This document shows, in pieces, positions 26,132 through 27,424 of a DNA stretch of 34,469 bases. The translations under genes were made by a program, and so were the position numbers. Numbering within the stretch: position 1 is the first letter of the stretch; every line of letters begins with the position of its first letter. The notes under the pieces were generated by a model that worked only from the letters and a program-made list of their open reading frames with translations, had not been told where the DNA came from and searched no databases. The stretch comes from Candidatus Acidiferrales bacterium (GTDB lineage Bacteria; Acidobacteriota; Terriglobia; Acidiferrales; UBA7541). The stretch spans positions 1-34,469 of the forward strand of contig JASHRL010000239.1 of the NCBI GenBank assembly GCA_030037355.1. Direction: 5' to 3'.

Positions 26132-26501
26132 CGCTTCCTCCCCAGTCCGAAGATGACTTCTTCCGTTCCATCCAGCGCCTTGCCTCGCCGCGATGGCCTG
26201 TGAATCCTACGCGCCTTCCGCCGCCGACACAACAAATCTGAACCATCAGGGGACCTCTCATGGGCCCAGGTGGACTCTGCGGAGTGGGTTCTGAGGGCAA
26301 GTGTCCGAAATCGTAAAATTTTTCAAAAAGTCGAAAGAATCAGCGATTAGAACGACCTCCTTCCTTTTGTTTTGTGTGAGTTAGGTCAACTTCTAATTCT
26401 TCATAGGACAAGCGATTAGAAATGGATTTTGGGGGCGGAGACGGGGGTTTCTGGCCTCTTCCATTGAATTCCAACGCCATTTTCGACATACCCCCAAAAC
26501 G

Positions 26502-26526
26502 AAAAAAGCCACCCGAAGGTGGCCAT
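26502..26526 (-). terminator. Rho-independent terminator with C(UUCG)G tetraloop
   Basis: Minus strand GCCACC-TTCG-GGTGGC followed directly by TTTTTT (stem 26508-26523, T-tract 26502-26507). Confidence 0.8.
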
Positions 26527-26567
26527 ACGCTTCTCCTGCGCGCATTGTCTGGCTGATCTCCAGCTGC
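26502..26567 (-). ncRNA. Candidate short regulatory RNA or leader/attenuator transcript
   Basis: Bounded by a strong promoter (TTGACT-17-TATACA) and the UUCG terminator. Predicted RNA: GCAGCUGGAGAUCAGCCAGACAAUGCGCGCAGGAGAAGCGUAUGGCCACCUUCGGGUGGCUUUUUU. TSS inferred, not observed. Confidence 0.45.
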
Positions 26568-26573
26568 AATACC

Positions 26574-26602
26574 TGTATATCAGAGAGTCAACTAAAAGTC
26601 AA
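26574..26602 (-). promoter_or_regulatory. Strong putative sigma70 promoter driving the short transcript
   Basis: Minus strand TTGACT (26602-26597), 17-nt spacer, TATACA (26579-26574); a second TTGACT starts 11 nt after the first. Confidence 0.65.
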
Positions 26603-26881
26603 GGAAAATCGCAAATAGTGAATCCGGCGGGGCAGACCACTCTGCCACAATCGGACCCAAGTGTCGCGCGAAATGCCTAGTATACTACGCGTCCCTGAGT
26701 CAGACGCTTCCATCCGCGAGCTATTACGTCTTCCGCGAAGGCATAGTGAAATCTGGTAGGAAGGCACCGGAAGTTTTTGTGATAGACGCTCGACCTACTC
26801 CGTCCGCTTCCAAGCGTTGATTGGTGTGGATTGCCGATTGCGTCGGTCGGCAGCAGTCGGGATGCGCAGGGCAACGGGGAT

Positions 26882-27121: not shown

Positions 27122-27330
27122 CCGTTAGCCAGGATTTCATCGCGGACGAGATGGAGGCGAATCACGGAAGGGGCTAGTTTGCGGTCGAAAAAGAAGGCGG
27201 AGACGGCTTCTCTCACGTTTTTTCTGAGGGCATCCCAGTCGTCAGCCTCAGTGAAAATGGGTTCGCTTAGACATTCGGCCACAAACCCGCCGTCGGCCTC
27301 TTGCGTCACCTCAAACACGATTTCGTTCAT
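27118..27330 (-). CDS. HicB-like short antitoxin
   Basis: 70 aa; IVFEVTQEADGGFVAECLSEPIFTEADDWDALRKNVREAVSAFFF; overlaps hicA by ATGA. Confidence 0.85.
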   Translation of the reverse strand: MNEIVFEVTQEADGGFVAECLSEPIFTEADDWDALRKNVREAVSAFFFDRKLAPSVIRLHLVRDEILANG

Positions 27331-27424
27331 GCCGCTAGGTTAAGCCACTGGCGGTCAATAGACAAGCGGGTACGTCGCGCGCGTGTCTGCTGGGTATGCG
27401 ACGGGCGGGGCAAACCCCAGCCCC

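Follow-up and report, generated by a model that had tools for sequence, protein, structure and literature searches.

Closest described systems

Transcription attenuators are arranged in a characteristic order: a promoter, a short structured leader, an intrinsic terminator and then the gene. Among dispersed repeats, REPINs are linked to the RAYT transposase. REPIN populations comprise many short non-coding repeats per genome (PMC8049555). The QMITE1 element of Coxiella burnetii is present in about 50 dispersed copies of 300-400 bp, which carry sigma-70 promoters and give small RNAs; it has been termed a typical MITE with short direct repeats (PMC5896051). The Correia repeat enclosed elements of Neisseria are small dispersed repeats, more than 100 in number, which alter gene expression and are often located near non-coding RNAs (PMC5039591). 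Our literature search found no paper on such repeats in Acidobacteria.

The locus we report lies in a window of 34,469 nucleotides, the whole stretch of DNA that was analysed, from a Candidatus Acidiferrales bacterium. The repeat family to which it belongs resembles QMITE1 in consisting of dispersed, promoter-carrying repeats; it differs in that no inverted ends or target duplications were found, that its unit has a covarying terminator of its own and that a gene-bearing parent locus with an HTH protein can be identified. The Correia elements are likewise small, dispersed and linked to non-coding RNA, but they belong to another lineage, their abstract describes no gene-derived leader-terminator unit, and they are likened here by description only. 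As in the REPIN/RAYT pair, many short non-coding repeats accompany few copies of a linked protein gene; unlike in that pair, the linked protein is Cys/His-containing and HTH-like without a recognised transposase domain, and the repeats carry a promoter and a terminator. The gene-bearing locus shows the order of parts of an attenuator, although no leader peptide, ligand motif or antiterminator is demonstrated there and Rfam offers no match. We consider it probable that the unit in the window is the promoter, leader and terminator of the HTH gene on a copy of the locus that lacks the gene, that the family is a MITE-like composite repeat, and that the same unit acts as an attenuating leader at the gene locus.

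A compact promoter-to-terminator unit

On the minus strand of the window, TTGACT and TATACA are separated by a 17-nt spacer, and 3' of this promoter GGCCACC-TTCG-GGTGGCT (26524-26507) runs into six T residues ending at 26502. The sequence thereby confirms the compact unit of the original prediction, and its parts are the following:

26574-26602, minus strand: promoter, with the -35 box TTGACT at 26602-26597, the -10 box TATACA at 26579-26574 and an extended TG
26586-26591, minus strand: second half-site, candidate operator; it lies 11 nt from the first half-site and reads TTGACT in the window and TTAACT in most copies
26502-26567, minus strand: predicted short RNA, from sequence and fold, its start placed from the -10 box
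26552-26564, minus strand: predicted 5' hairpin GCUG-GAGAU-CAGC, from the fold
26525-26545, minus strand: predicted second hairpin AUGCGC-GCAGGAGAA-GCGUAU with a 9-nt loop, from fold and alignment
26502-26524, minus strand: intrinsic terminator with U tract, from the terminator scan and family covariation

The RNA of about 66 nt (~26567 to 26502) is predicted to fold at -23.7 kcal/mol (z -1.6) into three hairpins, namely the two upstream ones and the terminator as earlier proposed, while a slightly longer form is predicted to take an alternative 5' fold (z -2.3). In the alignment, the second hairpin is confined to units of type A, and its stem is not retained in the G002 and G001:C66 orthologues. 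No Rfam family matches the window unit at gathering or relaxed thresholds, and inspection by eye for a small protein in the RNA found no start codon kept across copies.

Considered singly, the promoter and terminator signals are weak and not above chance. A consensus scan of the region gave 12 terminator-like sites, the window terminator among them, against 18.8 by chance, and the window promoter is absent from the scan list since the rule demands T at position 6 of the -10 box. These scans are what a chance resemblance to a promoter and a terminator would produce, but such a resemblance is refuted by the existence of 71 copies with covariation, and we assign it a negligible probability: comparison across the family puts the window unit far beyond chance.

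The unit family in the genus

A search of the window's own genome found a second copy (78%) and three more promoter matches, and relatives in the genus added further ones. A first, independently found set defined by TTGACTTTTAGTTAACTCTMTGRTAYAC comprises 25 distinct copies in five genomes, 24 of which reach an intrinsic terminator 50-75 nt downstream; the public contigs with the exact TTGACTTTTAGTTAACTCTMTGRTAYAC pattern are those of the Candidatus Acidiferrales MAG JOPF102. A covariance model built from 24 units (cut-off E <= 0.01) recovered 71 copies in five genomes of the genus (G000 21, G001 2, G002 10, G003 21, G004 17), with 21 in the window's own genome. The same model returned four weak matches, none credible, in three of 56 other genomes of the family. 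The original prediction had been made to depend on conservation outside its own genome and had called for a search for covariation; copies occur in all five genomes, and the terminator stem covaries.

In an alignment of 57 copies that was fitted to the terminator stem and hence leans towards it, covariation of that stem is 0.380 as against 0.166 when shuffled, a value reached by none of 500 shuffles. Six of its eight pairs show compensatory changes, sliding the pairs abolishes the signal, and a MAFFT alignment contains the same G-C/A-U and G-C/C-G exchanges. Over 24 copies, a 5' hairpin of variable sequence reappears (mean z -1.7). In the promoter, TTGAC and TGNTA are conserved at 89-100% except at N, and TTAAC is kept within the spacer at bases without a promoter role (T 93%, A 93%, C 84% in 56 copies). 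Hence, the direct repeat TTGAC-N6-TTAAC, with its halves 11 nt apart, is a feature of the family, and the suggestion that the two TTGACT copies of the window mark an operator gains from this: the repeat could be one. The conservation of these spacer bases (84-93%) would also suit a DNA-level device, in which TTGAC-N6-TTAAC would serve as a binding site at dispersed positions, with the short terminated RNA as a by-product. However, the RNA hairpin persists and compensatory change maintains the terminator stem, neither of which a DNA site would need, and at the orthologous gene locus the promoter has diverged more than the RNA; we regard this device as improbable.

A further possibility is that the copies encode trans-acting sibling small RNAs of 50-75 nt, Hfq-dependent and under one regulator, with the repeats only as the multiplying vehicle. 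This would account for the regulated promoter, 5' hairpin, purine-rich single-stranded stretch and terminator common to the 71 copies, for each unit having its own promoter and an intrinsic terminator with a U tract, and for the high conservation of the type A RNA; moreover, hfq is found in all five genomes (PF17209 over cut-off). It sits poorly with the body between promoter and terminator, which is the least conserved part across unit types and has no common seed region, with the shortest type, which barely exceeds two hairpins, and with the near-constant tie of the unit to a second element, TTCTAATCG, described below. We therefore consider sibling small RNAs rather unlikely, if the least so of the alternatives. 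The earlier proposal of protein binding through GGA loops, of the CsrA type, fails: the loop GGA is lost in several copies (the loop of G001:C51 is CACA) and no csrA is found in the five genomes (PF02599 absent from all, controls positive), so that a CsrA sponge was rejected. With Hfq present and CsrA absent throughout the five genomes, a role in trans is possible via Hfq and ruled out via CsrA.

The composite repeat and its 3' element

A dispersed composite repeat contains the unit as its 5' half and the TTCTAATCG element as its 3' half; the description of the unit as an orphan, an isolated small RNA gene, is thus superseded. In the window the composite is made up as follows:

26302-26613, minus strand: whole composite (promoter, ~66-nt unit, terminator, spacer and TTCTAATCG element), from the alignment to G004:C11
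26422-26501, minus strand: spacer joining terminator and element; an ORF occupies this place in the gene-bearing locus
26344-26421, minus strand: TTCTAATCG element, with ATTAGAA and an A-rich core between two direct TTCTAATCG repeats
26302-26343, minus strand: 3' part of the element, ending ...TTCGGACAC, where homology to the G004 copy stops
26340-26489, minus strand: stub reading frame with the end SNRLSYEELEVDLTHTKQKEGGRSNR, matching the C terminus of the G000:C158 HTH protein; probably a remnant and no gene

Across the family the composite measures about 250-310 nt: a promoter, a 50-75-nt RNA with hairpin and terminator, and then the element, in which the TTCTAATCG copies lie ~65-70 nt apart around ATTAGAA and the A-rich core. 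The window's own genome has 42 exact occurrences of the two-repeat pattern, which is found in 10 of the 41 genomes searched; a reversed control pattern has no occurrence. Of 70 testable unit copies, 69 have the element downstream of them on their own strand, counting exact, one-mismatch and partial forms. It is exact in 49 of the 71 units, 28 of them with the element 19-32 nt past the terminator; an exact element within 350 nt would be expected by chance in ~0.2% of cases, and none lies on the opposite strand within 1.5 kb of any of the 71 units. The remaining 22 comprise one unit at a contig edge, one without an element and 20 with a one-mismatch or partial element downstream, which are weaker evidence as a lone one-mismatch element can arise by chance. 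An integron attC-like site was also considered from the sequence but set aside: apart from one inverted copy inside, the repeats are direct, and they occur as scattered single units.

Strand and spacing would suit an ordinary role for the neighbouring genes, be it as a 5' leader or attenuator for the M24 peptidase gene downstream or as a 3' UTR for hicBA: the M24 start (26131) is ~170 nt past the composite, and hicA ends ~280 nt upstream of it. Yet the homology that the window shares around M24 with G004, G002 and G003 (protein identity 91-96%) ends at 26242-26254, just short of the composite, and the composite is not found upstream of M24 in these genomes. We rejected the M24 leader on account of this absence in relatives, and hold the ordinary leader or UTR as a whole to be very improbable.

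The gene-bearing locus and its probable attenuated leader

Four type A units (G000:C158, G004:C3, G002:C70 and G001:C66) are followed by the gene of an HTH protein and then by the element, and the downstream flank identifies this locus as orthologous in the four species. Its order is promoter, structured RNA, terminator, Shine-Dalgarno sequence and gene, such that in all four orthologous loci the terminator stands between promoter and gene; the window copy has no gene. G000 and G004, the closest pair, agree at 91-96% in leader and terminator and at 92% in the ORF, as against only 71% in the promoter. All four species retain the stems of the hairpin and the terminator as well as the ACAATT..GAGA core, while the terminator loop and the linker diverge. 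From its sequence, this arrangement is most likely and most simply an attenuated leader; no conserved alternative (antiterminator) pairing was seen by eye in the fold predictions and alignment. The original prediction had offered an attenuated leader as its alternative, and this is supported: in four species the unit is conserved at the head of a gene, as its leader. Of that interpretation as a whole, the compact unit, the direct repeat and the attenuated leader hold, whereas the orphan status and the binding through GGA loops do not.

The end of the HTH ORF overlaps the element in most copies of the protein family from genomes that have the element. Among 92 distinct elements, that of the window is identical at 77 of 78 positions (98.7%) to the element at the ORF end in G000:C158 and at 76 of 78 (97.4%) to that in G004:C3; the gene-less G004:C11 element follows at 94.9%, and all others are at or below 86%. 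The window copy thus matches the G000:C158 locus at both ends, and is that locus's ends without the gene. Such sharing of both ends with a gene-bearing parent is confined to type A; no candidate parent of this kind for types B, C and D is present in the genomes at hand.

At the gene-bearing locus, RNA polymerase would start at the regulated promoter and mostly stop at the terminator, with read-through past it transcribing the HTH gene. At the gene-less copies, that of the window included, the same short RNA would be started and stopped with nothing left to attenuate; unless active in trans, this RNA would serve no purpose locally. A gene's control leader would then have been copied about 20 times over a genome, with the gene left behind, and fused to a 3' element, which has also spread on its own (the 42 exact copies in the window's genome). 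This would give a tangible example of promoter-terminator units being handed round ready-made by repeats, in a phylum where RNA biology is sparse.

Two further observations concern the gene locus. In G001:C51 (L032) another small gene (ORF MTKKAISAGPVHSVPADLRKAL...) stands between a type A unit and the element; hence, the gene slot is not restricted to the HTH gene. A CGTACTATACC-like stretch is conserved upstream of the HTH-gene promoter in G004:C3, G001:C66 and G003:C70, with a variant in G000:C158 and G002:C70, and may represent a second regulatory site.

The linked Cys/His-HTH protein

The linked protein is marked by the motifs CxxCxH and YRHAxAxGL. Its family is found in 11 of 41 genomes, and the element is present in nine of these 11. 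It has no convincing match in Pfam, NCBIfam or PDB and no recognised transposase signature or domain; the plasmid and phage record collections hold no match to it. A two-sequence AlphaFold model has a mean pLDDT of 58, with confidence limited to the N-terminal helices, and no significant match came from fold searches with this low-confidence model. One of 16 members has a weak terminase small subunit (TerS) signal, matching phrog_426 with E 0.0032. In two IMG/VR contigs (L262 and L263), homologues lie directly before genes matching the terminase large subunit, and it is this gene position that suggests a terminase-small-subunit-like protein. A search of viral contigs for the exact promoter pattern found none.

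It is conceivable, if distinctly speculative, that the protein is a domesticated terminase small subunit and that the dispersed TTCTAATCG elements are its recognition (packaging-type) sites on the bacterial chromosome. Were this so, many such sites would be paired with the promoter and terminated RNA of the same gene, and the system would either propagate these sites itself or tag chromosomal DNA to be packaged into phage- or gene-transfer-like particles. The protein may also take part in the attenuation or the spread of the repeats. The linkage of this unclassified family, terminase-small-like by position, to the repeat family offers a testable partner for the repeats.

Genomic positions and mode of spread

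The 312-nt window composite (26302-26613) aligns at 90% to the G004:C11 copy, while the neighbouring genes differ; apart from the composite, only a hicB stretch aligns between the two sites. This stretch (86%; window 27153-27411, L030 5817-6079) lies beside the composite at both non-orthologous sites, and the hicA region of the window has no alignment at the L030 site. The M24 and dcd genes on either side of the window copy enclose, in G004, a different family member on the opposite strand, and a G003 contig that lacks M24 bears another member next to dcd. The copies are thus short, multiple, dispersed over non-orthologous positions and gene-less, as expected of a MITE. However, inspection of the edges of the window and G004:C11 copies by eye revealed neither terminal inverted repeats nor target-site duplications, for which reason we file the family as MITE-like and not as a MITE. 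Two 6-kb searches for a clean empty site returned synteny breaks in its place, and, given these three results, we infer rather than observe the mode of spread.

For some copies, recombination between repeats is indicated in place of transposition: at an orthologous locus, G000:C186 and G004:C11 have the terminator and element in common, while their 5' halves and upstream flank are exchanged, a pattern that in sequence terms is one of recombination. Another copy sits at the junction of two gene blocks that are joined in G004, near each other in G000 and apart in the other three genomes. With several copies at synteny breaks, the family may also drive rearrangement.

A second module upstream of the element

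A second module was also observed upstream of the element. Its promoter resembles that of the unit (e.g. TTGACAACTCGGTTAACATCTGCTATAAA), and close behind it comes a short ATG frame of ~22 codons ending in ...RGSRWxLxAA-stop, which is kept in frame in ten copies and possibly encodes a leader peptide. Its copies are located as follows:

G004: C1:34276, C6:74660, C16:248358, C20:93969
G000: C134, C209, C262, C266, C30, C123
Loci of G004 and G000 together: L103, L110, L121, L124, L136-L140, L095
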